Positions 20,630-58,995 of a DNA stretch of 64,000 bases are shown piece after piece. The stretch is taken from positions 62,001 through 126,000 of the forward strand of contig NZ_CYSP01000004.1 of the NCBI RefSeq assembly GCF_001298735.1. Direction: 5' to 3'. This DNA is from Propionispora sp. 2/2-37. GTDB taxonomy: Bacteria; Bacillota; Negativicutes; Propionisporales; Propionisporaceae. The position numbers and the translations under genes were made by a program. The notes below the pieces were generated by a model. The model saw nothing but the letters and a program-made list of their open reading frames with translations, was not told the origin of the DNA and did no database searches. Each line of letters opens with the position of its first letter. Positions within the stretch are counted from its first letter, which is position 1.

Positions 20630-20663
20630 CTACCGCACCTTCCTTTCCCGCAACAAGTATATA

Positions 20664-22169: not shown

Positions 22170-22173
22170 GCTT

Positions 22174-36534: not shown

Positions 36535-36583
36535 CCGGATGGCCTGAAGGGTTTGCAATCTGCTTAACCTTCAGGCCATCCGG
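36535..36583. terminator. bidirectional terminator between ycgQ-like gene and ganB
   Basis: A 16-bp perfect stem (CCGGATGGCCTGAAGG, 36535-36550, with 36568-36583) encloses a 17-nt loop and lies between convergent genes. It has AAAA on both outer sides. Confidence 0.8.
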
Positions 36584-36634: not shown

Positions 36635-38521
36635 TTATTCTATGGCGTTTTCTTGAATATACAACGTAACATCATCCAGTGAACCCCAGTTTCCAGCATT
36701 CGCTTCGTTGTACATTCCGATAGTAATTTTGCCGCTGGTCACAGGGATACCTTTAATCGTCCACTGATGCCATTTGTTCCAGCCGTCGTTTTTTATTTCC
36801 GCTGTTAATTTTTCTCCGCCATAATCAGCGGCAAACAACTGCATGCTTTTTTCGCCGCCACCGCCTTGTGTCCAACCGGATAAAGTATATTTGCCCTTCT
36901 TTAAACCGGTGATCGTCTGCTTTACTGTGAATTTAAACGTTTTATCCGCCCAGTAGTGAAGCGCGTATTTATCACGGACATCCCCAGATGAACTGCTTAT
37001 ATTTACAGCACCGGTATCACCCTCGATTGCCCAGTTATCAAAGTTATTGATTTCAAACCCCGAATTTCTAACTAAATTGACTTTATTATCTACTGTGATC
37101 CGGGCAGTTGCAGTTAGCGGAGTCCTCGCGACTGTTCCGTATAAAGTGTAGTGACCGACTTTATCATAGACGGTGCCGGGGTTATTCCAGCTAACCGGAA
37201 CAGCTTTGACTGAATCGTCGCTATAACGTACGCTGACGACTTTCGGCATATCCAAAGACTGGTTAACACTGGCTTTAACCTCAACCGGGTATGCCTCTTC
37301 CATTACCGCTTCCACATAACGTCCGTTCGGATCAGCTGCGCGGTTAAATACATCCATGGATTCCAAAACCTTGCCGTCGAAATCAAACATGGCCTGGTTT
37401 TCCCATTCATTGCCTTCCCCGGTTTTCCATGGGGCTTGGGGATTCGGAATCCAGTCAGGCTCCCAATAAAAAATCCCTAATCCCTTTTTGCCCGGTACTT
37501 TAACTACCGCCTCCATCACATTACGGATACAGGTTGCCTGTCCCTGCACGCTTGCTTTATAGCCGCTCAGTTTTTCTTCCGGCGCACCAAAAGCATTTTT
37601 TTGTGTATCCGCATTGTCCAGCGTAAAGCCATAGGCGGTTTCCACGACAATAACGTCTTTATTGTAACGGGCACTGATATCGTTCATATTATTTTGCAGT
37701 TGTTCCAGCGTACCGTGCCAAACAGGATAATACGACAAGCCGATAATATCAAAGTCATTAACTTTTTGATTTTTCGTCATTTCATCGAAAAAGCTGCGGT
37801 AAAGTCCGTTATCGCCGCCGTTGGCGAGATGAATCATGAGCTTGGTATAGTGTTCACTGTCCACATCTCTAACTGCCCTTAACCCGGCTTTCACCAATCC
37901 GGCAAAAACTTTGTAGCCACCGGCATTGGAGCCTGTAAGTTGACCTTCAGGCCAGAGCATACCGTTATTCAGTTCATTACCAATCTGCACCATTTCCGGC
38001 ATAATTCCCCGGGCTTTAAAATCCTGCATTACTTTTTTGGTAAATTCATAAACATCCTTTTCAAGCTGTTTACCGCTATGATTGGCCCATGCAGCCGGTT
38101 TATTTTGTTTACCGGGATCTGCCCACCAGTCGCTATAATGGAAGTCAATCAAGACTTTCATACCTAGTTTTTTGGCACGAGCCGCCATTTCCAGGGCTTT
38201 CGCCTCATCGGTGTTGCCGCCGCCAACTTCCAAGCCGTTGACTTCAGGATTATTCCAGATTCTCAGGCGAACCCAGTTAATTCCGTGCTCTTTTAGTATC
38301 TCCATGCAATCTCTTGCGACACCGTTATCATCATAAAATTTACTTCCGGTCATTTCAAGTTGTTTGAGCATGGAAATATCCGCACCTTTAATGAAATCCG
38401 GACTGATTCCAACAATCGGATTAACCTGAATACTCTCTGCCGCAGCGTTCAAAGTGCATAACATTGTATAACCAAATACCAAGGCCGCTAAAACTAGAGA
38501 AGGCAAAATTTTTCTTTTCAT
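36635..38521 (-). CDS. ganB: secreted endo-beta-1,4-galactanase (GH53) with Ig-like and CBM61-like modules
   Basis: The 628-residue protein has a signal peptide (LPSLVLAALVFGYTMLCTLNAAAE). A GH53 catalytic domain follows to about residue 395: DFIKGADISMLKQLE, WVRLRIWNNP, VLIDFHYSDWWADPGKQ, the acid/base Glu in MVQIGNELNNGMLW, FDIIGLSYYPVWHG and the nucleophile in VVETAYGFT. Next is a bacterial Ig-like (Big_4) domain (PKVVSVRYSDDSVKAVPVSW). The last 150 residues (LVRNSGFEINNFDNW) form a carbohydrate-binding module of the CBM61 type that binds galactan. It cleaves beta-1,4-galactan in type I arabinogalactan outside the cell. It is the last gene of the lac/galactan operon. Confidence 0.93.
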   Translation of the reverse strand: MKRKILPSLVLAALVFGYTMLCTLNAAAESIQVNPIVGISPDFIKGADISMLKQLEMTGSKFYDDNGVARDCMEILKEHGINWVRLRIWNNPEVNGLEVGGGNTDEAKALEMAARAKKLGMKVLIDFHYSDWWADPGKQNKPAAWANHSGKQLEKDVYEFTKKVMQDFKARGIMPEMVQIGNELNNGMLWPEGQLTGSNAGGYKVFAGLVKAGLRAVRDVDSEHYTKLMIHLANGGDNGLYRSFFDEMTKNQKVNDFDIIGLSYYPVWHGTLEQLQNNMNDISARYNKDVIVVETAYGFTLDNADTQKNAFGAPEEKLSGYKASVQGQATCIRNVMEAVVKVPGKKGLGIFYWEPDWIPNPQAPWKTGEGNEWENQAMFDFDGKVLESMDVFNRAADPNGRYVEAVMEEAYPVEVKASVNQSLDMPKVVSVRYSDDSVKAVPVSWNNPGTVYDKVGHYTLYGTVARTPLTATARITVDNKVNLVRNSGFEINNFDNWAIEGDTGAVNISSSSGDVRDKYALHYWADKTFKFTVKQTITGLKKGKYTLSGWTQGGGGEKSMQLFAADYGGEKLTAEIKNDGWNKWHQWTIKGIPVTSGKITIGMYNEANAGNWGSLDDVTLYIQENAIE

Positions 38522-38609
38522 ATTCTCACTCCTTTACTTTCTCCTTGTCAAAGTACTTTTATCATTACATTATGACCTCAAGACACGATTACATATGTTT
38601 TTACTGCAT

Positions 38610-39974
38610 TTAGAAACTAAACGATAAAGATGCGTTATATGAAGGTTTATAAGAATCAAACCCGGCACGGCCTGAATCATAGGGTTTAAGCTTATAATAG
38701 TTAATTTCTAAATTGGTATTGGCTGCCAGCATATAGCTTACGCCAACCCCCCAGCCCTTCTGACCGTCATTACCCAGTCCGTCGCCTCCGCTTATATTTA
38801 ATATATGCCCCCAGCCCGTCGAGTCTATTGCCCAATTGCCAAACTTCAGGTATTCTAAATACACATTATATGTATTTGCTTTGTTCCATTGCTGATTTCC
38901 CCAAGTCAGCCGGCTCCACCAGCCATTTTTTTGCGCATTATCCGGCAGTCCGGCGGCCCGGTTCGTAACACCTTCAGCAAGTAGATTTAATTTATCACTC
39001 AATTGCGTTTTAAAGCCGTAAGCATATTGCTTTAACATAAACGGTGCTTTCCAGGTACCATTGCCGTAATCATCCCGGTTAAGGTTTACCGTATTATCCG
39101 AATTGCTGGTTTTCAAATAGGCAAGCGTGGCTGTGGTACGGTCATTGACCGGTACGCTGATATTAGCTAAAAAGGCATTCATGGAATAGTCCCGCCAGTT
39201 TTCCGCCGTCAAATCACCCCAGCCTGCAGATATTTGGGCCTTGCCCAAATCATAAGTCGCATAAATACCGTCAACCGGGTTGTCCCACCAGATAACCCCC
39301 TGCCCCAGGCTGACAGCAATTCGACCGGCGGCCACGTTTAAATTATCATGATTCCAATTCAAGCCCAGCAAATCAAGATAGGCACTATTGTGCTGACCTT
39401 GCGCATTATGATACTCACCCCAGCCGGTATCCTGATTCGTCGTATTTTCCATTTTAACCCGCCCGATGACACTGACATTCTCTGCGGGGGTTCCATAAAA
39501 GCCCAGACGAACCCTTTGCTGAATTCTCTTGGAATTTCCATACTTACTGTCATCTCTTATATCATTATTATAATTTTTTTGATAACGGAACCTGGCGTCA
39601 CCATACCATTTAAAAGAGGACATGTTATTTTCCACATTAGTCAGACGAACACCTAGGTTTTTCAGTTCGTCCGAAAATTCATTCGCCAGTTTCTCCAGTG
39701 CCGCCTTATCTTCAGCGTCTGCTTTTTCCTCATTCGACATTGCCTTAGCTACAAGCTCGGCCATTTCGTAACGGGTGATTGCTTTTTCACCGCGGAAATC
39801 CTCATCCCCATATCCGTCAATCAGCCCTTCATGCACTAACTTTTCAACCGCCGGATAGGCCCAATGATCTTTGGGCACACTGGAAAACGGATTGGTAGCA
39901 GCAAACGCGATACCTGAAAAACTAAAAATACTAAAAACAAGAGTAACGGCAAGAAACTTCCTTCTCGCTTTCAT
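38610..39974 (-). CDS. SLH-domain outer-membrane porin
   Basis: The 454-residue protein has a signal peptide (FLAVTLVFSIFSFSGIAFA) and one SLH domain (DHWAYPAVEKLVHEGLIDGYGDEDFRGEKAITRYEMAELVAKAM). A short coiled coil follows (residues 85-120), then a beta-barrel ending in SLSFSF, the aromatic-terminal signal for outer-membrane insertion. This SLH-plus-barrel design is typical of Negativicutes, where the SLH part grips polyaminated peptidoglycan. The ATG at 39974 follows GAGAGGAAG. Its place between lacG and the galactanase gene suggests a porin for galacto-oligosaccharides, which is inference from context. Confidence 0.9.
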   Translation of the reverse strand: MKARRKFLAVTLVFSIFSFSGIAFAATNPFSSVPKDHWAYPAVEKLVHEGLIDGYGDEDFRGEKAITRYEMAELVAKAMSNEEKADAEDKAALEKLANEFSDELKNLGVRLTNVENNMSSFKWYGDARFRYQKNYNNDIRDDSKYGNSKRIQQRVRLGFYGTPAENVSVIGRVKMENTTNQDTGWGEYHNAQGQHNSAYLDLLGLNWNHDNLNVAAGRIAVSLGQGVIWWDNPVDGIYATYDLGKAQISAGWGDLTAENWRDYSMNAFLANISVPVNDRTTATLAYLKTSNSDNTVNLNRDDYGNGTWKAPFMLKQYAYGFKTQLSDKLNLLAEGVTNRAAGLPDNAQKNGWWSRLTWGNQQWNKANTYNVYLEYLKFGNWAIDSTGWGHILNISGGDGLGNDGQKGWGVGVSYMLAANTNLEINYYKLKPYDSGRAGFDSYKPSYNASLSFSF

Positions 39975-40029
39975 CGCAATCGAACTTCCTCTCAATATAA
40001 TTTTTCTGGACGATTTGTTTATGATGAAG

Positions 40030-41460
40030 TTAGAATTCTTGAATTTCATCTCCTTTCAGCAGACGCTTTGTTTGCGACATTTTTTTATACCAAAAGGCAC
40101 TTTTTTTAGGATAACGCTGTTGTGTTGCAAAATCCACATAAAACAAACCGTAGCGTTTATTAAACCCATTTGACCAGGAAAGCATATCCAGCAACGACCA
40201 TACATAATACCCTTTAACAACTACCCCCTCTTGAATCGCTTTCAAAAGCACCTCCAGGTGTTTATAAATGTATTCGATCCGCGGCGTATCATCAATTTTC
40301 CCGTCAATAAAATCGTCTTTATACCCCATGCCGTTCTCTGTAATATAGATTTTTTTATAGTTCGGATATTCTCGTTTGATCCGGTGAAGCATGTTATACA
40401 TACCTTGCGGATAAATAGGCCAGTCCCAATCCGTTGTTTCCACTTCCGGATTGCCAACACGGGCGCCGATTCCTTTTAACCCGAATACGCTTGTTCCTTT
40501 TTCACCTGTGCCGTTATGATAAATGCGGCTTTCGCCTTCATAGGCTTGCAAAAAATGGCTGGAATAATAATTCATGCCAAGAAAATCAATCTTTTGCGCA
40601 GCTTCCCGGAGGATCTGCATATCACCATTTTCCATCGTGAATGAACCACGATTCTGCATTAATATATCCTGCACCGTCGCCAGTGTTTCGGCTTCATATC
40701 CGCCTTTAAAACATGCGTCGAGCATGAAACGATTGGCCAGCATATCGTCCAAATAAGCTGCACGCTGGTCCTCAGGCTTATCGCTGATGGGGCATTTTCC
40801 TTCCAACGTATGGACAATGCCGATTTCCCCGGGCAGGTTCATACTTTTATAAAGCAACAGTACTCTTGCATGGGCAATCATCATATTATGCATGATTTGT
40901 ACTGCTTTCGGGATGTCGTATTGAATGCTTGGCGGGAAATTTCCGATAATATAGCCATTCTGGGCAACAGCCCAAGGTTCATTAAAGGTGGCCCATTTCT
41001 TTACGCGATCACCAAAATGGTCAAAGCAAACTTTTGCATATCTAACGAAATGGTCAATATTTTCGCGATTTAGCCAATCTCCATTTTGAAATAAACTCTG
41101 CGGCGTATCAAAATGATGTAAAGTGACAAATGGATCTACACCATTTGCCAAGCACTCGTCGATCAAACCGTTATAATAAGCAAGCCCCTGATGATTCACC
41201 TCTCCACTGCCATCGGAAATCACTCTGCTCCAGGAAATCGAAATTCTAATACCGTTTACACCAAACTGATTCGCTACATGCAGATCGTCTTTATATTTAT
41301 GATAAAAATCACTGGCAACATCACCGTTAAATCTGCTGCCCGGCCGACTGAGATATTCATCCCAGCAGCAAGGCCCACGGCCATCCTCTTTCGCTCCTCC
41401 TTCCACCTGATAAGCGGCTGTCGCTCCTCCAAATATGAAATCATCGGCAAACTTTTTCAT
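40030..41460 (-). CDS. lacG: 6-phospho-beta-galactosidase (GH1)
   Basis: The 476-residue GH1 enzyme has the acid/base Glu 161 in FNEPWAVAQNGY and the nucleophile Glu 375 in IYITENGMGY. The C-terminal LSWSNGFNKRYGLFYVDFATQQRYPKKSAFWYK is nearly identical to staphylococcal LacG, including the lysine and tyrosine that hold the 6-phosphate. It hydrolyses lactose 6-phosphate and similar PTS products such as phosphorylated galactobiose to galactose 6-phosphate. It is downstream of lacE by 14 bases. Confidence 0.95.
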   Translation of the reverse strand: MKKFADDFIFGGATAAYQVEGGAKEDGRGPCCWDEYLSRPGSRFNGDVASDFYHKYKDDLHVANQFGVNGIRISISWSRVISDGSGEVNHQGLAYYNGLIDECLANGVDPFVTLHHFDTPQSLFQNGDWLNRENIDHFVRYAKVCFDHFGDRVKKWATFNEPWAVAQNGYIIGNFPPSIQYDIPKAVQIMHNMMIAHARVLLLYKSMNLPGEIGIVHTLEGKCPISDKPEDQRAAYLDDMLANRFMLDACFKGGYEAETLATVQDILMQNRGSFTMENGDMQILREAAQKIDFLGMNYYSSHFLQAYEGESRIYHNGTGEKGTSVFGLKGIGARVGNPEVETTDWDWPIYPQGMYNMLHRIKREYPNYKKIYITENGMGYKDDFIDGKIDDTPRIEYIYKHLEVLLKAIQEGVVVKGYYVWSLLDMLSWSNGFNKRYGLFYVDFATQQRYPKKSAFWYKKMSQTKRLLKGDEIQEF

Positions 41461-41474
41461 GATCGGCTTCCTTT

Positions 41475-43151
41475 CTAATTATGGATTGAATTTAAAACGA
41501 AATGTAATGCGGCTTCCGGATCTCGCGTCAATTTAACATATTCCGCCCCGGAAGTTGTTGCAGATTTTACCCCTTTCGCGTCACAGTCACGTTTTAGCTC
41601 TTCATACATGGATGCCATCTGCGGCGCCAATACAATTAGATCAAAATCTGTCATTTTCTCTTTATGCTGCCCGTAGGCCATAGCAATCGAGTCTAAGTTC
41701 ACATTTTTTTCTTTTGCACCTTTTGTTATGGATTTTGCCAGCATACTACTGGTGGCTCCGCTCGCACAAAGTACCAGCACCGACAATTCCTTACCTTCAT
41801 GCTTTACTAATTCTACTTTGTTTGCAACTGCTTCTTCAAAAATGGCTTGTTTAATAGTGACAGCCGGCACTGCTTCATCATGCAATTCCAGTTCTCTTGC
41901 TATTAGTTGCCTGTCGTATACTTTGAAAAACGGATAATATACGATTGCATCGACAATCAGTAAAAGCGGCGCCAATACAAACGACAGTTTGGCAAAACCA
42001 GTACCTAAGATTAAGCCGATTGTGCCGGGGGTCGTCCACGGGAGAATGTAAACAAAACCATTCATACCTAAGTTGTCGATAAAAAATTTAAACAACCACA
42101 CATTTAATACCGGAGTCAAAATGAACGGTACAAAAAATACCGGGTTTAACACAATGGGAGCGCCAAAGAGAATGGGCTCATTGACGGCAAAAGTAACCGG
42201 TACGATCGAAGTCTTGCCCACCGCTTTCAACTGTTTTGACTTGGCCATAAAGGCGCACATAGCTGCAAACATTAAGGTGGCACCCGTACCGCCTAACGTT
42301 GCTACGAAATAAGAGGTCCCATGGGTTAGTGCATAGGACGCATGTTCGCCGGCTTGAAATAATTTCAAATTCGCTTCAATATTCGCAATATAAATTGCCG
42401 TCACAGCAGGCTCTACAATAGATGGGCCATGGATACCAGTAAACCAGAACATAGCCATAGCACCATATATAACGGCTAAACCAATATACCCATCGGCGGC
42501 AGTAAACAACGGTTTGAAAATTTCTAGAATCCAAGCACTGAAAACCATTCCCGTAATACCTTTAAATACAATGCTGAACAGCCAGAAAAATAAAACCGAA
42601 ACCGCCAGGGGAATCAAATCGGCAAAAGTCTGCGATATGTTATGCGGAACTTCTTCCGGCATTTTAATCGTAATATTCTTTTTTACACAAAACTTATAAA
42701 TATTCGGAATAATGAAAGCAACAAAAAAGGCCGATAACAACCCCTTGGTTCCCATGTATTCGCTCGAAAATCCGCCCTTAATGGAATCAACGCTCAACAA
42801 TAAGAAACAACAAATAGCTACAATCATGACCGAAACCGGATTGATCTGTCTCAACTTCGGTAAAAGATTATTAAATTTGTCCGTCAGGCTCTTGGCAATC
42901 GTCGCAACCATTAAAACCGATAATATCCCCATGGAATAATTGTAAGCCCGCCACAGTACGGCACTGATATGATCTGGCCAAACGTAACCGAAAATATCCG
43001 GTACACAGGCCACCAGGATAAACATGCTGGAAAATAAAACAACCGGTATACAACTAACAAAACCATCCCTGACCGCCCTTAAATAAGGATTATTTGAAAC
43101 CTGCTCAAAAAATGGCTTCATTGTTTCGATCAACTGAATTATTTTTTCCAT
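41475..43151 (-). CDS. lacE: PTS lactose-family EIICB
   Basis: The 558-residue protein has an N-terminal EIIC of the lactose/cellobiose type with about ten membrane helices and the conserved stretches VNEPILFGAPIVLNPVFFVPF and TPGTIGLILGTG. It ends in an EIIB domain with phosphocysteine 462 in VLVLCASGATSSMLAKSI. It imports lactose or another beta-galactoside and phosphorylates it at C6. The EIIA is the next gene upstream, lacF. Confidence 0.95.
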   Translation of the reverse strand: MEKIIQLIETMKPFFEQVSNNPYLRAVRDGFVSCIPVVLFSSMFILVACVPDIFGYVWPDHISAVLWRAYNYSMGILSVLMVATIAKSLTDKFNNLLPKLRQINPVSVMIVAICCFLLLSVDSIKGGFSSEYMGTKGLLSAFFVAFIIPNIYKFCVKKNITIKMPEEVPHNISQTFADLIPLAVSVLFFWLFSIVFKGITGMVFSAWILEIFKPLFTAADGYIGLAVIYGAMAMFWFTGIHGPSIVEPAVTAIYIANIEANLKLFQAGEHASYALTHGTSYFVATLGGTGATLMFAAMCAFMAKSKQLKAVGKTSIVPVTFAVNEPILFGAPIVLNPVFFVPFILTPVLNVWLFKFFIDNLGMNGFVYILPWTTPGTIGLILGTGFAKLSFVLAPLLLIVDAIVYYPFFKVYDRQLIARELELHDEAVPAVTIKQAIFEEAVANKVELVKHEGKELSVLVLCASGATSSMLAKSITKGAKEKNVNLDSIAMAYGQHKEKMTDFDLIVLAPQMASMYEELKRDCDAKGVKSATTSGAEYVKLTRDPEAALHFVLNSIHN

Positions 43152-43174
43152 GTCACTTCAACTCTCTTTCTTTA

Positions 43175-43480
43175 TCATTTTTTGTACAAATTAACCAGGC
43201 TTTTAACAAGGTCTCTCAACAGCATCACCGTCATTAAATGATCCTGGGCATGCACCATCAAAAAGCTCATGTCTAATTTTTCACCCGCGGCTTCTTTCTG
43301 CAACATAGCCGTCTGGGTATTATGAGCTTGGGTAATCAAATCATTCCCCTCCTGAATCAAGCTTTCTACCTTGCCATACTCCCCCCGGCTTGCCGCTTCC
43401 AAAGCTTCCATATACTTTGATCGGGCATCCCCCGCATAAGCCACAATTTCCACTGTAATCATTTGCAATTCTTCATCCAC
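43175..43480 (-). CDS. lacF: PTS lactose-family EIIA
   Basis: The 101-residue all-helical protein carries the EIIA-Lac phosphohistidine motif FLMVHAQDHLMTVML (His 77). It passes phosphate from HPr to the LacE EIIB domain. The start is a GTG at 43480, preceded by AGGGGGATC. The frame is open further upstream but extends into lacC and gives no family homology. The length matches EIIA-Lac, usually 103 to 105 residues. Confidence 0.93.
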   Translation of the reverse strand: MDEELQMITVEIVAYAGDARSKYMEALEAASRGEYGKVESLIQEGNDLITQAHNTQTAMLQKEAAGEKLDMSFLMVHAQDHLMTVMLLRDLVKSLVNLYKK

Positions 43481-43502
43481 AATTCTGATCCCCCTGAGTT
43501 TA

Positions 43503-44474
43503 TTATTTGAGTGGGCATTGTACCATAATTCGATTAGTTTTTTTTGAAACATAAGCCTGAACATGGACTTCTTTTGTAAACCTTTTAACCTGTTCAGCAT
43601 TTACCTGTCCGACTCCCGAATGCACCGCATTAGAAAGAGCACAAGCATTTGCAAACTTCAGCACTTCTGCAACCTTATAATTTTTATACAAAGCATAAGC
43701 CAGCCCGCTGACTAACGAATCACCGCAGCCTACCGTATTGGTTACTGCGATATTGGGAACCCGAACAACAAACTGCCCCAAACTACCGTTGAGTATCATC
43801 CCGCTTCTCCCCATCGATACACACACATTTTCCGCTCCCAGTTGCAACAGCAAGGATGAACTCGTAAACGCATCGTCCACCGTCTTAATCTTCATTCCGG
43901 TAATATATTCCAGTTCCTCTTCATTAGGCTTGACTAGAAAGGGCTGTTCTTTAATCGCCATACGCAGGCTTTCTCCCGAAGAATCTAAAATAAATCTCAC
44001 TTCGGCTGCTTTGCATATTCTGGCAATTTTCCCGTAATAGTCGGTTGGGATACCTTTTGCAAGACTGCCCGAGCCAACCAGAATCTTTGTTCTTTTTATG
44101 TTTCTCCGCAATTGCTGCTCAAAACGTTCCAGTTCTTCCGGTAAAATATCCGGCCCGCTTTCCAGGACTTCAGTCGAAAGCCCCTTATCATCCCGAAAAT
44201 TCATGCAAATTCGAGTGGTCCCATGAATCGGGGTAAAACAATCGATTAGATTGCAGGCAGCTAGTTCCTGCTTAATAAAACCGCCGGTAAATCCACCCAG
44301 AAAGCCAAGACAACTAACCGTACCGCCAAGTGTGCTGATTACTCGCGAAACATTAAGACCTTTGCCTCCCGCCGTTGCAGTCACACTCTTTGCGCGCTGA
44401 ACTTTACCTAAAGCAAAATCCTCCAGTACATACGACCTGTCAACCGAAGGATTTAATGTAAGTACGGTAATCAT
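43503..44474 (-). CDS. lacC: tagatose-6-phosphate kinase (PfkB family)
   Basis: The 323-residue kinase starts MITVLTLNPSVDRSYVL and has the PfkB signatures ATAGGKGLNVSRV and VGCGDSLVSGLAYAL with the catalytic Asp. It phosphorylates tagatose 6-phosphate to the 1,6-bisphosphate; some relatives use fructose 1-phosphate, but the lac context favours LacC. The ATG at 44474 sits two bases past the aldolase stop with AGAGGG upstream. It is the only tagatose-6-phosphate kinase candidate in the window, so the gat operon probably depends on it too. Confidence 0.88.
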   Translation of the reverse strand: MITVLTLNPSVDRSYVLEDFALGKVQRAKSVTATAGGKGLNVSRVISTLGGTVSCLGFLGGFTGGFIKQELAACNLIDCFTPIHGTTRICMNFRDDKGLSTEVLESGPDILPEELERFEQQLRRNIKRTKILVGSGSLAKGIPTDYYGKIARICKAAEVRFILDSSGESLRMAIKEQPFLVKPNEEELEYITGMKIKTVDDAFTSSSLLLQLGAENVCVSMGRSGMILNGSLGQFVVRVPNIAVTNTVGCGDSLVSGLAYALYKNYKVAEVLKFANACALSNAVHSGVGQVNAEQVKRFTKEVHVQAYVSKKTNRIMVQCPLK

Positions 44475-44476
44475 AC

Positions 44477-45358
<882 letters not shown>

Positions 45359-45874
45359 TTAGTCGTGATAGAAGCCTTCATCCCACTTTTTTCGAAATTC
45401 GTCAAAGATATGGTCATTGGTAATGGTGTCATTTTCACCAATCATCGCATCAATTTTTTTGATTAGCTCCTTATTTTCCGGTGTCGGCTGGTATTTAGCC
45501 TGAATAAATGCTTCCAGAATGTATTCAATCGTACCGATTCCCACCACTCTGCCACCCATGCCAATGAGGTTGGCATTCAATTGTTCTTTGGCGTAAACTG
45601 CGCTTTGTACGTCTGTAACCAATGCACCGCGGACGCCTTTTACTTTCTGGGCGGCTACATTGATGCCAACACCGGTACCGCAAATACAAACTCCAAAATC
45701 CACTTTATTTTTAGCGACTGCAACACCCACCTTTCTTCCATAAATCGGATAGTGCGTGCGAACACAATCATAAGTGCCGCAGTCCATCACCTCATGTCCT
45801 TTATTTTTCAAAAACACAACCACTTTATCTTTGATATCTGTAACAATATGATCACAACCAATAGCTATTTTCAT
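45359..45874 (-). CDS. lacB: galactose-6-phosphate isomerase subunit LacB
   Basis: The 171-residue protein of the RpiB/LacAB family starts [23 protein letters not shown]. It has the catalytic Cys region [21 protein letters not shown] and the C-terminal [14 protein letters not shown] typical of LacB. With LacA it forms the isomerase that converts galactose 6-phosphate to tagatose 6-phosphate. It lies 14 bases downstream of lacA. Confidence 0.95.
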
Positions 45875-45888
45875 TTCTTATCCCTCTC

Positions 45889-46308
45889 TTATAGCATCCT
45901 GTTTAACATATCAATACGGACTTGATGCCGTCCGCCGTCGTACTCCGCTGTAGCAAAATTCAAAGCCAAGCAGCAGGAAAGCTCTTCCGCCGTTATATTA
46001 GCACCCAGTGTAATGATTTGCGTACGATTATGCATCCTGGTCATTTTCGATGTATAGTCTTCGTAAACCGGCGCACATATGATTTCTGAATTTTTATTGG
46101 CAATCATAAATGGTGCCACACCGTATGCGTCGATAACAATCCCCCTATCCGCCGCTTTATCTTCGATTGCTTTTACAACATTCATCGTAGCCTCAAATAT
46201 ATCGGACTCAGAAACATCTTGAACACTATAATTATGGTTTTCCATAATTTTTTCGATTTTCACTTTAAGTTTTTCGCCGCTTTTATCTGCGGCAATTGCC
46301 AATTTCAT
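45889..46308 (-). CDS. lacA: galactose-6-phosphate isomerase subunit LacA
   Basis: The 139-residue partner of LacB starts MKLAIAADKSGEKLKVKIE and ends FATAEYDGGRHQVRIDMLNRML. As is usual for LacA it lacks the catalytic Cys-Gly-Thr-Gly stretch seen in LacB and serves as the second subunit. The ATG at 46308 follows GTGAGG. It is the first gene of lacA-lacB-gatY-lacC-lacF-lacE-lacG-porin-ganB. Confidence 0.93.
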   Translation of the reverse strand: MKLAIAADKSGEKLKVKIEKIMENHNYSVQDVSESDIFEATMNVVKAIEDKAADRGIVIDAYGVAPFMIANKNSEIICAPVYEDYTSKMTRMHNRTQIITLGANITAEELSCCLALNFATAEYDGGRHQVRIDMLNRML

Positions 46309-46413
46309 TTGCATAACCTCACTTATCATCAAATTAAAACTTCTTTTGCTAAGTTCTGTCTGTGAACTTGTACCCATTATACTGCGTTGAAAATTGGTTT
46401 TGTTTTCTTTTTT

Positions 46414-46427
46414 TGAAAGCATTTTCA
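46414..46427. promoter_or_regulatory. cre-like catabolite-repression site upstream of lacA
   Basis: TGAAAGCATTTTCA matches 13 of 14 positions of the cre consensus TGWNANCGNTNWCA. It lies about 106 bp upstream of lacA, between the divergent regulator's promoter region and the operon, as expected for CcpA roadblock or promoter repression. Confidence 0.6.
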
Positions 46428-46544: not shown

Positions 46545-47312
46545 ATGTTAATTAAAATTGACCAATCTTTTTATAGGAAATTAACAGAGACAGAGCAGCA
46601 GATCATTACTTTCATTAACGAAAACGCAAGCAGAATATCTAACATGTCCATTAGCACCGTCGCCGAAGAGACTTTTTCCTCTTCAGCAACGGTCTCAAGA
46701 ACTGTCCGGAAATGCGGTATTAGCGGCTTTGCTGAGTTAAGATATCTGCTTTCCACCAAAAATACCGAATCTGGCGACCTGATTCAGGTCAATGAAATCT
46801 TGAAAAAATCCGTTTTAGAGGCAACGAATACTGTTGACCATTTATCCGTAAACGATACTTTAAAAGTAATTAGTCTTATCCAAAAAGCACCTAGAATTTA
46901 CATTTTATCCAGAGGGCTGACCGAGCTTGTTGCTAATGAGTTTTCTCTAAAGCTGCAATTGCTCGGTTATAATGTTTTTTCCATCTCCGATGCCGCCATC
47001 ATGCAGAAGGTAACTGCTGATGTTAAACGTGATGAATTGGTATTTATTTTTTCCTTATCCGGTAAAACGGAAGAATTAATCGTTTCTGCTGAAAATGCCG
47101 TATCCTGTGGTGCAAAGCTTATTACTTGTACCTGCGACGCAAATACGCCGCTGGTTAAAATGGCGACTATTCCCTTCATTGGTTATAAGCATCAACATAT
47201 TTCTATAAAAAAAGTAGATGCTACCTCCCGTTTTCCTTTATACATCTTATCTAGAATCCTTATCGACTACTTAATCCTAGAAAAAGAAAAACCAAAGAAA
47301 ATATCTTTATAA
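46545..47312 (+). CDS. RpiR-family regulator of the lac/galactan operon
   Basis: The 255-residue protein has an N-terminal RpiR helix-turn-helix (QQIITFINENASRISNMSISTVAEETF then SSATVSRTVRKCGISGFAELR). A SIS sugar-phosphate-binding domain follows (RIYILSRGLTELVANEFSLKLQLLG, FSLSGKTEELI). Such regulators sense a phosphosugar; here galactose 6-phosphate or tagatose 6-phosphate is the obvious guess. It is divergent from the lac operon. Staphylococcal and streptococcal lac operons use DeoR-type LacR instead. Confidence 0.9.
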   Translation: MLIKIDQSFYRKLTETEQQIITFINENASRISNMSISTVAEETFSSSATVSRTVRKCGISGFAELRYLLSTKNTESGDLIQVNEILKKSVLEATNTVDHLSVNDTLKVISLIQKAPRIYILSRGLTELVANEFSLKLQLLGYNVFSISDAAIMQKVTADVKRDELVFIFSLSGKTEELIVSAENAVSCGAKLITCTCDANTPLVKMATIPFIGYKHQHISIKKVDATSRFPLYILSRILIDYLILEKEKPKKISL

Positions 47313-47468: not shown

Positions 47469-48509
47469 TTACATAACAAACATGACTTTTATAGCATCGG
47501 CATCTTTATCCACCATTGTCCTGAATGCGTTAATCCCGTCTTCAAGTTTAAACTTATGGGTAATCAACGGATCGGTCTTGATTTTCCCCTCCTTGATGTA
47601 TAAGGCAACCGCCGGCCATTCATATCCCGGATAAGGAGCACTGTACGACATCCATGACCCCGTTACTTCAATCTCTCCTCTTAAGATTTTTTCAAAACTG
47701 TGCGGCGGTAATCCAAGTTCCTTTGTTGCTGTCCCCACAAATACCACCTTGCCCAATTTACTAACCACTTCAATGCTCTGACGCTGGGTTAGCGGAGACC
47801 CGGCAGTTTCGAATACAACTGCCGGCTGCCCCTGCTGCTTCATGTAGTCCACCGGATCATCTTCAAGGGCATTAATGACCGCATCGGCACCCAGTTGTTG
47901 CGCCAGGCGGAGTTTTGTTCCGATAACATCTACAACATAAACCTTGCCGGCACCTTGCGCTTTTAAACACTGTAAAGTTAATAAACCGATTGTTCCGGCA
48001 CCAAATACAGCCGCTGTTGCCCCGGCGTTAAATGAAACCCTGCCTACACCATGTAAGGCAACCGAAATGGGTTCAATCATGGCTCCCGCCGGATAATCCA
48101 CCTCATCGGCAAGGGGCACGACATTTATAGCTTTGATGGCAACGTATTCCGCGAATGCTCCCGGTCTGCGCGAACCGACAAAATTATAGGACTCACACAT
48201 GGCCGGCCGGCCAATTTTGCAATACTGGCATGAGCCGCAGGGTAGCAGCGGCGCAGCCGTTACCCGTTGACCGGCCTGTATATTTGTGACTGAACTTCCG
48301 ACTGCGGCCACATAGCCGGAAAATTCATGCCCCAGAATAATCGGATAGCTATGAGCCGTTCCCTGCAGTGCCCTTGGCAAATCTGAACCGCATATGCCGC
48401 AGGCTTTTACCCGAATTAATACTTCATCGTCTTCATAGGCCGGAATATCCATGGTCTCCAAACGTAAATCTTGGGAGCCATAAGCTATCAATGCCTTCAT
48501 TTTCCTCAT
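47469..48509 (-). CDS. gatD: galactitol-1-phosphate 5-dehydrogenase (zinc MDR family)
   Basis: The 346-residue protein has the catalytic zinc site (CGICGSDLPR and GHEFSGYVAAVG), the structural zinc cysteines (CGSCQYCKIGRPAMC) and the NAD motif VFGAGTIGLLTLQ. In the gat operon it oxidises galactitol 1-phosphate to tagatose 6-phosphate. The ATG overlaps the gatZ stop by four bases (ATGA) with GAGGGG upstream. A second, similar enzyme is encoded at 57908-58957. Confidence 0.92.
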   Translation of the reverse strand: MRKMKALIAYGSQDLRLETMDIPAYEDDEVLIRVKACGICGSDLPRALQGTAHSYPIILGHEFSGYVAAVGSSVTNIQAGQRVTAAPLLPCGSCQYCKIGRPAMCESYNFVGSRRPGAFAEYVAIKAINVVPLADEVDYPAGAMIEPISVALHGVGRVSFNAGATAAVFGAGTIGLLTLQCLKAQGAGKVYVVDVIGTKLRLAQQLGADAVINALEDDPVDYMKQQGQPAVVFETAGSPLTQRQSIEVVSKLGKVVFVGTATKELGLPPHSFEKILRGEIEVTGSWMSYSAPYPGYEWPAVALYIKEGKIKTDPLITHKFKLEDGINAFRTMVDKDADAIKVMFVM

Positions 48510-49858
48510 AGTATCCCCTCTATATTACCGTCCAATTTATCTTGCCTTTTTATCGCATACACATAATCGTCCAGACAGTTGATAATCCGGTCCTTCAGCA
48601 GGCTTTCCGGCTCGTTTTGCAATACGCCTCTTCTGATCTTACTGCACTGAACCGGCATAAACTGACTGATCAGCGTTACCGGTATAGCGACCGACTTCAG
48701 GTTATTGATTAGCGTATCGAGTGCATATTTTACTTCGGCAACCGGCAAATAATACCGGCAGCGGTCGGAAAAACTGTATTTGCGCGCGTACCGGACTTTA
48801 GCCGGGCTGCCGTGGTAATGATGAATCCAGTACTGGGGATTGCGAACCATAAACCAGTCCAGGATTTCCATAAAATTAGACGGCTCCAGTTCCGGTTTAA
48901 AACGCAGTATTTCCTGTTCCATCCGGCTTAAGGCAAATAATGCCTCCCGCATGGCAAAGGTTAACGCCGGCCCCACTTTCAAAATGGCTATACCGTCTTC
49001 AACCATTGCTTTTAAAGCCTCCGGTGTCTGGTAGTCGGTTGAATGGCCTTCAAATACCATGCCGGGATACTGCTGCAGGGCTGCAGTCAGCTCTTTGGCG
49101 GCACTGCGGTTATATTCATGAATACCTTCATCGCCAAACTCCACACCCGGCTGAACCACAACCGCAATCACATACTGCCATATGGGGCTAAGTTCATGCC
49201 GGGAAAAGGCTTGTTTAAATGTTTCGACTGTATTTTTAAAATCCAGGGCTTTCGTGACTTGCAACTCATCCTTTTCATCCCGGCTTCCCCCGGGAACCGG
49301 CACTTCACTGCCAATCACATATACCGGATGAATACTTTCCGGATAAGATGTCTTAAGCTCCAGAAAGGCCTCTTCCGCTTCCCGGCAGAGTATGGCTCCC
49401 CGTTCGGCAATAATGCCGGTATCCAAGGTTTTGCTGTGATCATCGTCTCCCATCTGCATGCTGGTATCAATATGAATTTTAGTGAAACCGGCCAACACAT
49501 ACTCCCGTATAAGTTCCCGGGATTTTTTCAGCGCACAGCGGGCCGGTTCGTTTTTCCAGGTAAGCGGTCCCAGATGGTCACCGCCTAAAATAAGTTTTGC
49601 CAGGGGAAATCCGGTCTTACCGGCAATCCGGTATACAAAATTACGAAAATCGGCCGGCTTCATACCTGTATAACCGCCAAATTGATTAACCTGGTTGGCA
49701 GTCGCTTCGATCAATATATACTGATCATCCGTCAGCCCCCGCTGCAACGCAGCTTCAATCACATATTCGTTAGCGCTGCAAACGGAATATATACCCTGCC
49801 AGTGATTTGTTTTTCTGCCATTTACCAACGTTTGCAGAGGATGCTGCATGCCATTCAT
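48506..49858 (-). CDS. gatZ: tagatose-1,6-bisphosphate aldolase subunit GatZ/KbaZ
   Basis: The 450-residue protein matches the non-catalytic subunit that stabilises GatY/KbaY: GIYSVCSANEYVIEAALQRG, IEATANQVNQFGGYTGM, LILGGDHLGPLTW, HIDTSMQMGDD and VFEGHSTDYQTPEALKAMVEDGIAILKVGPALTFAMREALFAL. No GatY gene lies in this operon; it is in the lac operon at 44477-45331. The ATG at 49858 follows GGAAGTGAG. Confidence 0.94.
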   Translation of the reverse strand: MNGMQHPLQTLVNGRKTNHWQGIYSVCSANEYVIEAALQRGLTDDQYILIEATANQVNQFGGYTGMKPADFRNFVYRIAGKTGFPLAKLILGGDHLGPLTWKNEPARCALKKSRELIREYVLAGFTKIHIDTSMQMGDDDHSKTLDTGIIAERGAILCREAEEAFLELKTSYPESIHPVYVIGSEVPVPGGSRDEKDELQVTKALDFKNTVETFKQAFSRHELSPIWQYVIAVVVQPGVEFGDEGIHEYNRSAAKELTAALQQYPGMVFEGHSTDYQTPEALKAMVEDGIAILKVGPALTFAMREALFALSRMEQEILRFKPELEPSNFMEILDWFMVRNPQYWIHHYHGSPAKVRYARKYSFSDRCRYYLPVAEVKYALDTLINNLKSVAIPVTLISQFMPVQCSKIRRGVLQNEPESLLKDRIINCLDDYVYAIKRQDKLDGNIEGIL

Positions 49859-49985
49859 AAAACTCACTTCCAATCAAGACATGATTTTTAAAATTTCTCC
49901 CGGCCTATGCTAAATCGAATACCATGATCAACCGGTGAAAGGAAGAGCCAGCGCAGGTTGCTTACTCCAGCTCCTATTTAACTTC

Positions 49986-51353
49986 TCAGACCTGGGTGGT
50001 TTTACCGGAATATTCCTCCAGCGCTTTACTTTCATCCTTATAGTACTTAATGGTGGCCAGCACGGAGGCAATATAAATAATACCGACCATCAGCAATCCC
50101 GCAATATTATCCGGTCTAAACAACTGTAAGAGAATATAGGTTACCGGACTGCCGCCCTGGTCCATGGAAGCTACATGGGTAACACCTGCCGCCAATTGGG
50201 TTCCGGCCTGTTGCGCCAATATGGTATGCAGGTCAATGGTTTGCGTGGATATCCAGAGTGTTCCGGCCATAATAACAAAACCCGAAATGAGTGTTCTAAA
50301 TAAATTTCCCTTATGAACGCCGACAGCCATTGCCACAAAAAAACCAATCGTTGCCAGATCACCAAAGGGAAGAACTTTATTGCCCGGAACGACAGCCGCA
50401 ATAATTAACGTTAACGGTACAAACAACAAGCTGGCTGCCACAACCTGCGAATCGCCTAATAACAGGGCCGGGTCCAGCCCGATATAAAATTTCTTTCCCG
50501 AAAACTTTTTTTCCAGTATCTCCCTTGCCGAATCGGCTACCGGCAACAGGCCTTCCATAATGCATTTAACCACCTTGGGCATGAGGACCATAACCGCAGC
50601 CATTTGCATGCCCAGTTGCATAACCAGGTCAGCGCTATATCCGGCCATAGCACCAATTACCGCCCCTAAAATCAAACCAATTATCATCGGTTCGCCGATA
50701 ACGCCAAACTTTTCTTCAATAATTTCCGAATTAAAATTAATGTCTTTTATTACGGGTATCCTGTCCAGCAGCCATTCAATCGGAACGGCAACAGGGCCGC
50801 AATAAGCGGAGGTTCCATGGGGAATGGCCACGCCTTTAAGATCGTAGTATTTTTCGATAACAGGACTAAACCAGTCGCCCAGCTTAAAAACAAAGGCAGC
50901 ATGTAGGGCCACTCCGGCCAGGCCGATCATTAAATTGCCTGTTGCAATATGCAGCAAAGCCCCGGTAAAAGCCATATGCCAAATATTCCAAATATCGACA
51001 TTAACAACTTTAGTCATGCCAAACACCAGCATGGCAATATTGACGGCTACCGCGACAGGTATACATAAACCGCCGACCTGGGAAGCCCAGGTCATAGGCG
51101 AAGATCCCGGCCAACCAACATCAACCACTGTCAGTTGAACACCAAAACGTTCTGCCATCAGTTTGGCCGCAGGTCCTAAGTTATTTAACATCAGTCCTAT
51201 GACCAAGCCGATTCCGATAAATCCGATACCGATCATGACCCCGGACCGAAAAGCACGGCCTGGCTTTTGTCCCAAAACTATGGCAAAAATAAAGATGACG
51301 ATTGGCAACATAACCGAAGGGCCCAGTTTCAATATATACTGAATAAATTCCAT
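49986..51353 (-). CDS. gatC: PTS galactitol EIIC
   Basis: The 455-residue polytopic permease starts MEFIQYILKLGPSVMLPIVIFIFAIVLGQ and continues with VGWPGSSPMTWASQVGGLCIPVAVAVNIAML and YCGPVAVPIEWLLDRIP, matching GatC. It carries galactitol across the inner membrane while EIIB-GatB phosphorylates it. The ATG at 51353 is nine bases after AGGAGG; upstream in-frame codons are not needed. A weak hairpin lies between it and gatB. Confidence 0.94.
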   Translation of the reverse strand: MEFIQYILKLGPSVMLPIVIFIFAIVLGQKPGRAFRSGVMIGIGFIGIGLVIGLMLNNLGPAAKLMAERFGVQLTVVDVGWPGSSPMTWASQVGGLCIPVAVAVNIAMLVFGMTKVVNVDIWNIWHMAFTGALLHIATGNLMIGLAGVALHAAFVFKLGDWFSPVIEKYYDLKGVAIPHGTSAYCGPVAVPIEWLLDRIPVIKDINFNSEIIEEKFGVIGEPMIIGLILGAVIGAMAGYSADLVMQLGMQMAAVMVLMPKVVKCIMEGLLPVADSAREILEKKFSGKKFYIGLDPALLLGDSQVVAASLLFVPLTLIIAAVVPGNKVLPFGDLATIGFFVAMAVGVHKGNLFRTLISGFVIMAGTLWISTQTIDLHTILAQQAGTQLAAGVTHVASMDQGGSPVTYILLQLFRPDNIAGLLMVGIIYIASVLATIKYYKDESKALEEYSGKTTQV

Positions 51354-51588
51354 CCTCAAAAACCTCCTCATTATTGTCTGTTGAAACAATCCGGCTGTTG
51401 TTGAAATATTGTTTTTTGTAACAAACATTCTTTTTCTGTCTTAAAAACTGTCACAAAAACGCTGGACTTTCCCAGCCAATTATTGTATTCTCATAAGTAA
51501 GTTGCTTTTCTCCTGGTTATTATGCTGTCAGTTTAGCCGCTACAGTGCCACCGGGAGTATTTTTATGCCAGGCAAACTGTCACCATCT
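51354..51588 (-). other. gatB-gatC intercistronic region with a weak hairpin
   Basis: This 235-bp gap inside an otherwise tight operon has no supported gene. On the minus strand GCTGG and CCAGC (51476-51472 and 51465-51461) form a 5-bp stem followed by GTTTTTG, a weak terminator-like structure that may lower expression of the downstream genes. No clear internal promoter was found. Confidence 0.45.
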
Positions 51589-51873
51589 TCAACTGCGTAA
51601 ATGCGCTAAAATTTTCCTTCCGGCTTCCTCAGCTCCGATACCGGACACAAACGGCATTCCCGTTTCCAGCGGAATGCCGTAATTTTTCGTTACCCGCGAT
51701 GTAGTAACGATCAAATCGACATTCTGACATTTGGCACTGATTTCGGATACGCGGCATTGCACAATTTCAACATCAATGCCTTCTTTTTGGCATAATTCCA
51801 CAATCCGGTTGGCAGCTACCGTTGATGTGGCTACCGCTCCCCCGCAGGCCACAATCACTCTCTTTTTTTTCAT
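51589..51873 (-). CDS. gatB: PTS galactitol EIIB
   Basis: The 94-residue protein has the EIIB phosphocysteine loop VIVACGGAVATSTVAA (Cys 10) and the helix RIVELCQKEGIDVEI. It transfers phosphate from GatA to galactitol. The ATG at 51873 follows AAAGGAGGTG; an upstream in-frame GTG is too close to that site. Confidence 0.93.
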   Translation of the reverse strand: MKKKRVIVACGGAVATSTVAANRIVELCQKEGIDVEIVQCRVSEISAKCQNVDLIVTTSRVTKNYGIPLETGMPFVSGIGAEEAGRKILAHLRS

Positions 51874-51957
51874 GCGGTTCACCTCCTTTCGTACTCAAAA
51901 AACAATATTTATACTGAACAGCTTGCCAGGCTGTTGCAACCGGTCCGCCCTGTCCGT

Positions 51958-52437
51958 TCACAGTTCCAGATTAATGGTCTCGGCAATACAGGTGGCATTT
52001 GCTGCGTTCCGCAGCTTCAGCATGACATCTTCTTTGGAAAATAATCCCAGCAGTTTCTGTAAAAACATTAAATGCTCCTGCGGATTGTGCACCGCCAGCA
52101 TAAACACGATATTAACCTCAAGAATATCCTCTTGACCGCCGCCCATAACATGAAAAGGTATACTTTTATCAAGTACCCAGACCGAAGCAGCTGTTTTCAG
52201 TACATGACCGGCATCCGAATGCGGTATTGCCACTCCCACTCCGGCTGCCGCCGCGATTCCGGTTGGAAATTCCTTTTCCCTGGCAAGCAGCGCCGGTATA
52301 TACGACGGTTTGACAAACCCCTGCTCTACCAGCATAGTTCCCATCGCAGTAATCAAAGCCTCACGGCTGGGGACCTGCACACCCACTTTTACCAGCTTTT
52401 CATCTATCCTGGACACTGCTTCTTGCTGCTCCGACAT
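51958..52437 (-). CDS. gatA: PTS galactitol EIIA (fructose/mannitol type)
   Basis: The 159-residue protein is an EIIA type-2 domain with phosphohistidine 73 in GVAIPHSDAGHV, followed by LEVNIVFMLAVHNPQEHLMFLQKLLGLF. It accepts phosphate from HPr for GatB. Its first 38 bases overlap the end of the regulator gene, indicating cotranscription and probably coupled translation. Confidence 0.92.
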   Translation of the reverse strand: MSEQQEAVSRIDEKLVKVGVQVPSREALITAMGTMLVEQGFVKPSYIPALLAREKEFPTGIAAAAGVGVAIPHSDAGHVLKTAASVWVLDKSIPFHVMGGGQEDILEVNIVFMLAVHNPQEHLMFLQKLLGLFSKEDVMLKLRNAANATCIAETINLEL

Positions 52438-57907: not shown

Positions 57908-58957
57908 TTATTTTTCCGGATAAAACAGCACCTTGCCAAAATTCCCCTCACGGTTAACAATCCTTTCAAAAATTGCCGGTCCCTCTGCCAAACTGAGACG
58001 ATGAGTAATCATCGGTTCAATTTTCAGACTGCCTTCTTTCATAAAGTGTACTGTCGTATGCCACTCTTTTCCGGGGAACGGTGCAGAAATGGCATTCCAT
58101 GATCCATAGACCGACAGCTCGTTACGTACAATTCTTTCAAAATAGAAACGTTTTACCATGACATCACCATAAGGGATACCCATAAACACCACTTTGCCGC
58201 CTTTACGAGGCAGAGAGAAGACTTGAGCGGAAGTGATCGGGCTCCCTGCCGATTCAACGGCAATGTCTACCCCCCGGTCGCCTGTCATCTCAAAAATCTT
58301 TTCGTGCGGTTCAATATCTTTAGTATTCACACCGAAATCAGCCCCCAGTTTTTTGGCCAATTCCAATTTTGTATCATCAATATCCAGAGCATAGACATGC
58401 CTTGCACCGAAAATCTTCGCCCACTGAATGGCTAAAAGGCCTATAGTGCCGCAGCCGATAACAGCTACATCATCACCGGCTTCAATACCGGTTTTATAAA
58501 GGCCATGGATGGCAACACTGGTTGGTTCTACAAGACTTGCCACATCATAGGAAACTTCATCAGGAATTTTAACAACATTTTCAGCGGGCAATTTGACATA
58601 TTCCGCAAAAGCACCGGGATGTAACGCTCCAATTACCGTTAAATGTTCACAACGGGCAAACTCCCCCTTATGGCAGGATTCACATTTACCGCAATAAAGC
58701 GCGGGGCAACCCGTAACACGGTCACCTACTTTTACATTGGTAACTGCTTTGCCAACTTCCGCAATTTCACCGGAAAACTCATGTCCCCATGTCATTCCGG
58801 GAATATAAGGTCCCAATTTTGCATATCTGTGAATATCCGACCCGCAAATGCCCACGACCTTTACCTTGATAATTACATCGGTCTCCTTGTTCAATACCGG
58901 TTTGTCGGCATTTTCAAAACGTAAATCTCTTGCACCATATAAGTTTAATGCTTTCAT
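57908..58957 (-). CDS. zinc-dependent polyol (phosphate) dehydrogenase, GatD-like paralogue
   Basis: The 349-residue medium-chain dehydrogenase has VGICGSDIHRYAKLGP and GHEFSGEIAEVG (catalytic zinc), CGKCESCHKGEFARC (structural zinc), VIGCGTIGLLAIQWAK (NAD) and GSWNAISAPFPGKEWH. It is closely similar in layout to the gatD at 47469-48509, so it may act on galactitol 1-phosphate or another polyol. It stands alone 9 kb from the gat operon, with its own promoter and terminator. The ATG at 58957 follows AAGGAGC; an in-frame start at 58978 overlaps that site. Confidence 0.88.
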   Translation of the reverse strand: MKALNLYGARDLRFENADKPVLNKETDVIIKVKVVGICGSDIHRYAKLGPYIPGMTWGHEFSGEIAEVGKAVTNVKVGDRVTGCPALYCGKCESCHKGEFARCEHLTVIGALHPGAFAEYVKLPAENVVKIPDEVSYDVASLVEPTSVAIHGLYKTGIEAGDDVAVIGCGTIGLLAIQWAKIFGARHVYALDIDDTKLELAKKLGADFGVNTKDIEPHEKIFEMTGDRGVDIAVESAGSPITSAQVFSLPRKGGKVVFMGIPYGDVMVKRFYFERIVRNELSVYGSWNAISAPFPGKEWHTTVHFMKEGSLKIEPMITHRLSLAEGPAIFERIVNREGNFGKVLFYPEK

Positions 58958-58995
58958 AACGATACTTGCTCCTTCCATTTACTATATTTAATACC

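Follow-up and report, generated by a model that had tools for sequence, protein, structure and literature searches.

Pectic galactan use in a diderm bacterium has been described for the gan cluster of Dickeya, which encodes the porin GanL, the endo-galactanase GanA, the importer GanFGK and GanB (PMC8386352). A galactan operon, ganSPQAB, has been described in Bacillus subtilis (PMC5472308), and OmpM porins are described as general pores and tethers. Here we analysed a 64,000 nucleotide stretch of the Propionispora sp. 2/2-37 genome (contig NZ_CYSP01000004.1, positions 62,001 to 126,000, referred to as the window) that carries nine genes on the minus strand, running from 46308 to 36635 in the order lacA-lacB-gatY-lacC-lacF-lacE-lacG-porin-ganB. 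Very probably this diderm Firmicute has here a complete operon for the use of pectic galactan (beta-1,4-galactan), equipped with a porin, the lactose-type phosphotransferase system (PTS) LacEF, LacG, a tagatose route and activation by an RpiR-family regulator. A first-pass annotation made from the sequence alone had listed the same nine genes in this order, and open reading frames (ORFs) together with family searches bore this out at identical coordinates.

Gene content and conservation of the locus

GanB carries a GH53 domain matching PF07745 at 450 bits across its full length, and both catalytic glutamates were kept, as the segments IGNELNNG and VVETAYG align to solved GH53 structures. Residues 481-623 form a C-terminal module that matches 2xom (E 3e-24), which we take to be the CBM61 of a Thermotoga maritima enzyme, and this CBM61-like module is a supporting sign for a predicted beta-1,4-galactan activity of GanB. 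Both parts of a lactose-type PTS, IICB and IIA, were present in LacEF (PF02255, PF02378 and PF02302), with LacE scoring 585 bits to lac_pts_IIC, slightly short of equivalog level (cut-off 614). LacG exceeded the lacG cut-offs, has the Ser/Trp/Lys/Tyr substrate site and retained the phosphate-site segment SWSNGFNKRY (SWSNG.NKRY when aligned to 1pbg, the Lactococcus 6-phospho-beta-galactosidase). From the LacABCD set, LacA, LacB and a PfkB kinase (tagatose-6-P/1-PFK type) were found, the last of which would be the tagatose-6-phosphate kinase judging by its context, and the class II aldolase GatY stands where LacD would.

GH53, counted above cut-off, was detected in 36 of the 381 Negativicutes genomes sampled, a close LacE in 33 and both in 32 (Fisher p ~5e-41, a value that overstates independence because the genomes are related). 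In the sole LacE genome without GH53, G243, lacE adjoins gatY and both porin and ganB are missing. Reading of 40 GH53 neighbourhoods recovered 35 porins of one ganB-linked branch, in almost every case immediately upstream of ganB; at 24 loci lacE or lacE-lacG lay directly ahead of porin and ganB. Pelosinus propionicus (L013/L125) has the identical nine-gene order, RpiR gene included, and Selenomonas-type loci are rearranged into the units lacE-porin-ganB, gatY-lacC and lacABFG. As the genes are kept together in other Negativicutes, in the same or a rearranged order, the arrangement is not a matter of chance. Linkage of the porin-ganB pair to the lac PTS in other Negativicutes had been proposed as a check of the first-pass annotation, and the outcome was positive.

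The best reading of these data is that the PTS substrate would be galactobiose or short beta-1,4-galacto-oligosaccharides. The earlier suggestion of galactobiose rather than lactose thus gained comparative support from the pairing of LacE with GH53. We propose that GanB, anchored on galactan via its CBM61, would cleave the polymer, and that the dedicated OmpM-type porin would pass the short galacto-oligosaccharides over the outer membrane. LacEF would import and phosphorylate galactobiose, perhaps galactotriose and lactose too, and cleavage by LacG would yield galactose-6-phosphate and galactose. Galactose-6-phosphate would be converted to tagatose phosphates and on to triose phosphates via LacAB, LacC and GatY, and the free galactose would enter the Leloir operon within the window (galK, galE, galT and galM at 19559-24353). 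No GH42 was found in the genome, which makes the route through 6-phospho sugars the obvious choice. Finally, the divergent RpiR protein would sense a phospho-sugar and bind over the -35 region, always at the same distance, to switch the promoter on.

Next to the acid/base glutamate, the sampled Negativicutes LacG proteins read NEPW(S/A)(I/V)AQNGY, and LacG of lactose operons (Lactococcus, E. faecalis and Leptotrichia) reads NEIGPIG(D/E)GQYLVG in the same place. This difference would touch the aglycone side, and galactose replacing glucose could be a reason for it. NEPW occurs also in one E. raffinosus LacG. The first-pass annotation had likened the lac genes to those of monoderm cocci, which held in that the same lac genes are present but not in their lineage: the Negativicutes LacG proteins form a branch of their own in the tree, LacE is ~51% identical to that of Lactococcus and to the plasmid-borne LacE of cocci in general (best 61%, E. 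raffinosus), class II GatY replaces LacD and an RpiR regulator replaces LacR. The separate LacG branch and the ~51% LacE identity led us to drop a recent acquisition of the lac genes from cocci. The Enterococcus raffinosus megaplasmid (L199 7117-17011) carries two lactose-type PTS clusters, one with the LacE closest to ours in the plasmid collection (61%) and a LacG with the NEPW motif; GH53 was absent from the 25 kb read.

The ganB-linked porin and the shared control site

The porin begins with the signal peptide MKARRKFLAVTLVFSIFSFSGIAFA and is an OmpM-type protein, with an SLH domain, a coiled-coil linker and a C-terminal outer-membrane barrel. Its closest match in the PDB, by sequence (8bys/8bym, E ~1e-37 to 1e-35) and by fold, was OmpM1 of Veillonella, and a structure model (mean predicted local distance difference test score, pLDDT, of 70) displayed SLH helices, a helical linker, 16 strands and a terminal Phe. 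Eleven GH53 genomes with 2-16 SLH porins each were compared, and the ganB-linked porin was always far the top score. In a tree of 36 ganB-linked and 41 unlinked SLH porins a branch with 100/100 support separated all the linked ones from the rest; the test was made harder, not easier, because the unlinked set was drawn from better-scoring paralogues. We also asked whether relatives of the gan porin are confined to GH53 genomes. A search across the class spoke against this, with relatives at 35-46% in genomes that lack GH53, but none of these joined the ganB-linked branch, which stayed single after the nearest such porins were added. Sugar channels are often rich in Trp, and the linked porins contained 3.36% Trp versus 1.78% in the unlinked ones. 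The porin had been proposed to be a dedicated oligosaccharide channel, and its place in the ganB-linked branch supports that proposal on comparative grounds. At one locus, in a metagenome-assembled genome (L123 7402-11405), the porin points the opposite way to ganB and the operator, which reflects either an inversion or a misassembly.

Comparison of the gaps between rpiR and lacA revealed a conserved composite inverted repeat, from which a matrix of 13 sites was built. Beyond the sites it was trained on, the matrix recovered others ahead of lacE, gatY, porin and ganB units, whereas 300 kb of shuffled sequence yielded no match. When grouped by hand according to the next gene, the sites preceded lacA/lacF (16), lacE (16), gatY (9), porin (3), ganB (8) and GH1 (1). 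A TATAAT-like box lay exactly 20 nt downstream of the operator in 51 of 53 distinct sites. No -35 hexamer was recognised, as none of 52 sites had more than 2/6 matches, fewer than at random positions. The fixed 20 nt distance to the -10 box combined with the lack of a -35 box suggests that the RpiR regulator is probably a dedicated activator covering the -35 position.

In split clusters the operator was found upstream of lacE-porin-ganB, gatY-lacC, porin-ganB and lone ganB copies, so that porin and galactanase share the control site that precedes lacA. The site GAAAATGCTTTCAAAAAAAGAAAAC was the sole exact match genome-wide, and a whole-genome motif search likewise gave a single site here; a congener that lacks the locus had none, and a reversed control pattern found none. 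Most split-locus genomes had 3-5 operator sites, located at the lac/gan loci, with the exception of G104, where sites lay at porin-ganB and ~2.6 kb from the RpiR gene. RpiR orthologues adjoin lac/gan loci in many Negativicutes; in Propionispira, whose locus contains a DeoR-type regulator, the operator was absent in the whole-genome search. Four loci (L007, L131, L138 and L143) contain arrays of multiple ganB copies, and some of the copies have an operator and a -10 box to themselves.

Within the nine-gene locus the intergenic gaps measured ~2-25 nt, except for lacG-porin (55 nt) and porin-ganB (88 nt), and neither of these two folded better than shuffles. A strong terminator and a separate promoter between lacG and the porin would have spoken against a single operon; both were looked for and neither was found here, and where other genomes have separate promoters in split clusters those promoters bear the same operator. 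The hairpin behind ganB (36583-36535) reached -45 kcal/mol over that stretch, with a z of -4.7 against shuffles, and was skipped by the terminator scanner because its loop exceeds 8 bases. The consensus promoter/terminator scan gave matches near chance level and overlooked both the -10 geometry and the long-loop terminator. A TTGACA at 38551 ahead of ganB was rejected as a promoter element as it overlaps the ribosome-binding region.

Alternative explanations and wider context

The lac genes could in principle belong to a lactose operon that gained ganB and a general porin as neighbours, with lactose the real substrate and the galactanase a side function. LacE, LacF and LacG match lactose-type models, the plasmid lactose operons of Lactococcus, Enterococcus and Leptotrichia share these lac genes, and G243 retains them without ganB and porin. 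Yet the near-complete overlap of LacE and GH53 (32 of 33 LacE genomes in the class) is unexpected under lactose use, the operator also precedes lone ganB and porin-ganB units, and GanB has a galactan-binding module, which together make this explanation improbable. Where GanB acts is a closer question. It had been called secreted, and the Sec-type signal peptide agrees with this, but export beyond that step does not follow. GanB may instead be periplasmic with the porin letting in longer galactan chains, as in Dickeya, and we give this arrangement somewhat less than an even chance. The intact relatives begin with a signal-peptide-like segment, neither a lipobox nor an SLH domain was seen on inspection, and in Dickeya the periplasm, behind GanL, is where the endo-galactanase works (PMC8386352); a CBM61, however, is best understood as facing polymer outside the cell. 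Several points weigh against the galactan operon as we describe it. LacE and LacG similarity by itself cannot tell galactobiose from lactose, and the RpiR protein is the presumed binder of the site on the strength of co-occurrence. The high Trp content belongs to a single branch, so it is one observation and not several independent events. The locus is absent from two congeners and is therefore an accessory trait. Four GH53 genomes are without this LacE, two of them owing to matches that are incomplete or fragmentary, and GanB may therefore be served by other uptake systems.

The porin, too, could be a structural OmpM tether or a general diffusion pore that is co-transcribed and has no preference for galactan pieces. 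V. parvula OmpM1 is both general pore and tether (PMC10628300), and the gan porin retains the SLH domain and stalk. We consider this unlikely, though less so than lactose use, given the single ganB-tied branch on a long stem, the high Trp content, the persistence of the porin-ganB pairing where the lac genes are located elsewhere and the seven further SLH porins in the genome. Similarly, the left half of the conserved site, TGAAAANNTTTTCA, resembles a catabolite (cre) element, and the site might be bound by a CcpA-like protein and not be an RpiR operator. That is very doubtful: there are only 1-5 sites per genome, at or near lac/gan genes, and zero in tested genomes without an RpiR-lac locus or in Propionispira with its DeoR-type regulator, and the fixed 20-nt spacing over an absent -35 fits an activator. 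The whole-genome search led us to reject a genome-wide cre site. Taken together, a galactan operon under a one-site RpiR activator accounts best for the locus, and Negativicutes "lactose PTS" annotations of this type probably signify pectic galactan use.

Outside the gan loci, 29 of 116 SLH porins (13 genomes) had a PTS EIIC gene no more than 5 kb away, compared with 3.8 expected under random placement; the EIIC matches are the best of a longer list and a few porins share one EIIC. This proximity suggests that the point about dedicated porins may be general. Sister porins adjoin rhamnose-GH4, rhamnose-GH28 and GH43 genes, and further SLH porins adjoin PTS, GH32, apiosidase, GH5-CBM27, GH28-GH88 and sulfatase genes. 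The porins at L210 1909-12503, L217 8093-18029 and L230 7308-14019 lie within rhamnogalacturonan-type loci, which contain rhamnose genes with GH4 or GH28, or GH28 and GH88 with a sugar transporter. In the Propionispora genome itself an SLH porin on contig C8 (L224 1024-11618) has as neighbours a GH1, a glucose-type PTS protein and a sulfatase accompanied by a radical-SAM-like gene, an arrangement suggestive of a PTS locus for sulfated glycosides that includes a porin. Relatives of the gan porin from GH53-free genomes (L207 8636-9955, L208 9451-10770, L209 9410-10759 and L216 8739-10058), some sister porins among them, lie next to or near peptide/nickel-type ATP-binding cassette (ABC) transporter genes, and the larger group of porins therefore serves not only sugars. 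We put at about even the chance that a whole class of OmpM-type porins in Negativicutes is tethered to peptidoglycan and specialised by substrate, every one of them drawn into a locus for a PTS or a glycosidase, with the gan porin and its one-locus RpiR activator regulon as the clearest member. If so, their substrates would be those of the galactan, rhamnogalacturonan, GH43, GH32, mannan and beta-glucoside loci, and they would be the diderm-Firmicute counterpart of SusC or LamB. A porin branch that tracks one enzyme and one sugar pump under one site suggests that dedicated channels evolved from an ancestral tether in diderm Firmicutes, and the linkage of porin, enzyme, pump and control site across the class makes this idea testable.

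The features of the locus are collected in the table; the lacA and porin starts (46308 and 39974) fall inside their longest ORFs.

Table. Features of the lac-porin-ganB locus (window coordinates)
Feature	Coordinates	Strand	Evidence
lacA	45889..46308	-	PF02502; lacA models score best, 123-145 bits, under equivalog cut-offs
lacB, galactose-6-phosphate isomerase subunit B	45359..45874	-	NF006381 266.6 bits, above cut-off; PRK08622 cut-off exceeded
gatY, class II tagatose-bisphosphate aldolase	44477..45340 (alternative start 45331)	-	NF009374 448 bits, above cut-off; PRK12737 cut-off exceeded
lacC-like PfkB kinase	43503..44474	-	TIGR03168 308 bits; lacC models 216-228 bits, under cut-off
lacF, lactose-type PTS IIA	43175..43480 (start 43480 or 43462)	-	PF02255; TIGR00823 131 bits
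lacE, lactose-type PTS IICB	41475..43151	-	TIGR00394 585 bits; PF02378 and PF02302
lacG, GH1 6-phospho-beta-galactosidase	40030..41460	-	both lacG cut-offs exceeded; best PDB match 1pbg
OmpM-type porin (signal peptide, SLH, coiled coil, 16-strand barrel)	38610..39974	-	PF00395; 8bys/8bym E ~1e-37 to 1e-35
ganB, endo-beta-1,4-galactanase (signal peptide, GH53, Big_4, CBM61)	36635..38521	-	PF07745, PF07532; 2xom
Terminator-like 16-bp hairpin, then TTTT	36535..36583	-	~50 nt past ganB; folding z -4.7
RpiR-family regulator (HTH_6 and SIS), divergent from lacA	46545..47312	+	Pfam PF01418/PF01380
Operator-like composite inverted repeat GAAAATGCTTTCAAAAAAAGAAAAC	46402..46426	-	motif common to related loci
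TATAAT -10 box of the lacA promoter, without recognisable -35	46376..46381	-	20 nt from operator-like site

Adjacent to the locus, a galactitol PTS operon (window 47469-52437, minus strand) encodes gatA-B-C, gatZ and gatD. Although GatZ is present, this operon includes neither gatY nor a tagatose kinase, and the GatY and LacC of the lac operon may serve both; the genome encodes another GatY (58% identity) at a different place. An Rfam rli30 match of 67.7 bits (window 58593-58708, plus strand) lies antisense within a galactitol-1-P dehydrogenase-like gene (57908-58978) and is probably coding-sequence similarity, not an RNA gene.

Comparison with known systems

The hosts of B. subtilis ganSPQAB and Geobacillus Gan1D are monoderm, and their systems are without a porin. 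The B. subtilis galactan operon imports through an ABC importer, and Gan1D is a 6-phospho-beta-galactosidase of a galactan user. A Lacticaseibacillus paracasei plasmid (NZ_CP078098, L081) carries lacE-lacG-lacF-GH53, likewise a lactose-type PTS and LacG adjoining a GH53 protein. That cluster differs in its LacI regulator and in having neither tagatose genes nor a porin, and its LacG groups with another Lacticaseibacillus LacG and not with the Negativicutes branch. The Lactococcus lacABCDFEG operon shares LacA, LacB, LacC, LacF, LacE and LacG, their order and the pathway with the present locus, but has LacD instead of GatY, a DeoR-type regulator and no galactanase or porin. Veillonella parvula OmpM1 has the same SLH, coiled coil and barrel build as the gan porin; OmpM1 is a general diffusion pore (PMC10628300), whereas the branch of the gan porin is rich in Trp and bound to its locus, and may differ in function. 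Lactococcus lactis GlaR is an RpiR-family activator of a galactose/lactose operon (PMC6528599), although that Leloir-lac operon is of different make-up and no operator shared with the present site is known.

Neither a PTS-linked OmpM porin nor a galactan PTS in Negativicutes was found in the searched literature, an absence that is no proof, and the same literature did not contain the combination of a lactose PTS, tagatose enzymes, an OmpM-type porin and a GH53-CBM61 enzyme under one RpiR-linked site. The halves of the system have precedent in the Dickeya porin and galactanase, the 6-phospho enzyme Gan1D and the PTS-GH53 pair of the L. paracasei plasmid. The Dickeya gan cluster likewise groups an outer-membrane channel, an endo-galactanase and uptake, but relies on GanL, the ABC importer GanFGK and intracellular hydrolysis to free galactose. 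The Propionispora locus has neither a GanL-type porin nor a GanFGK importer and instead combines an OmpM-type SLH porin with a lactose-type PTS and a route through 6-phospho sugars. It would work like Dickeya gan, yet is a different system.

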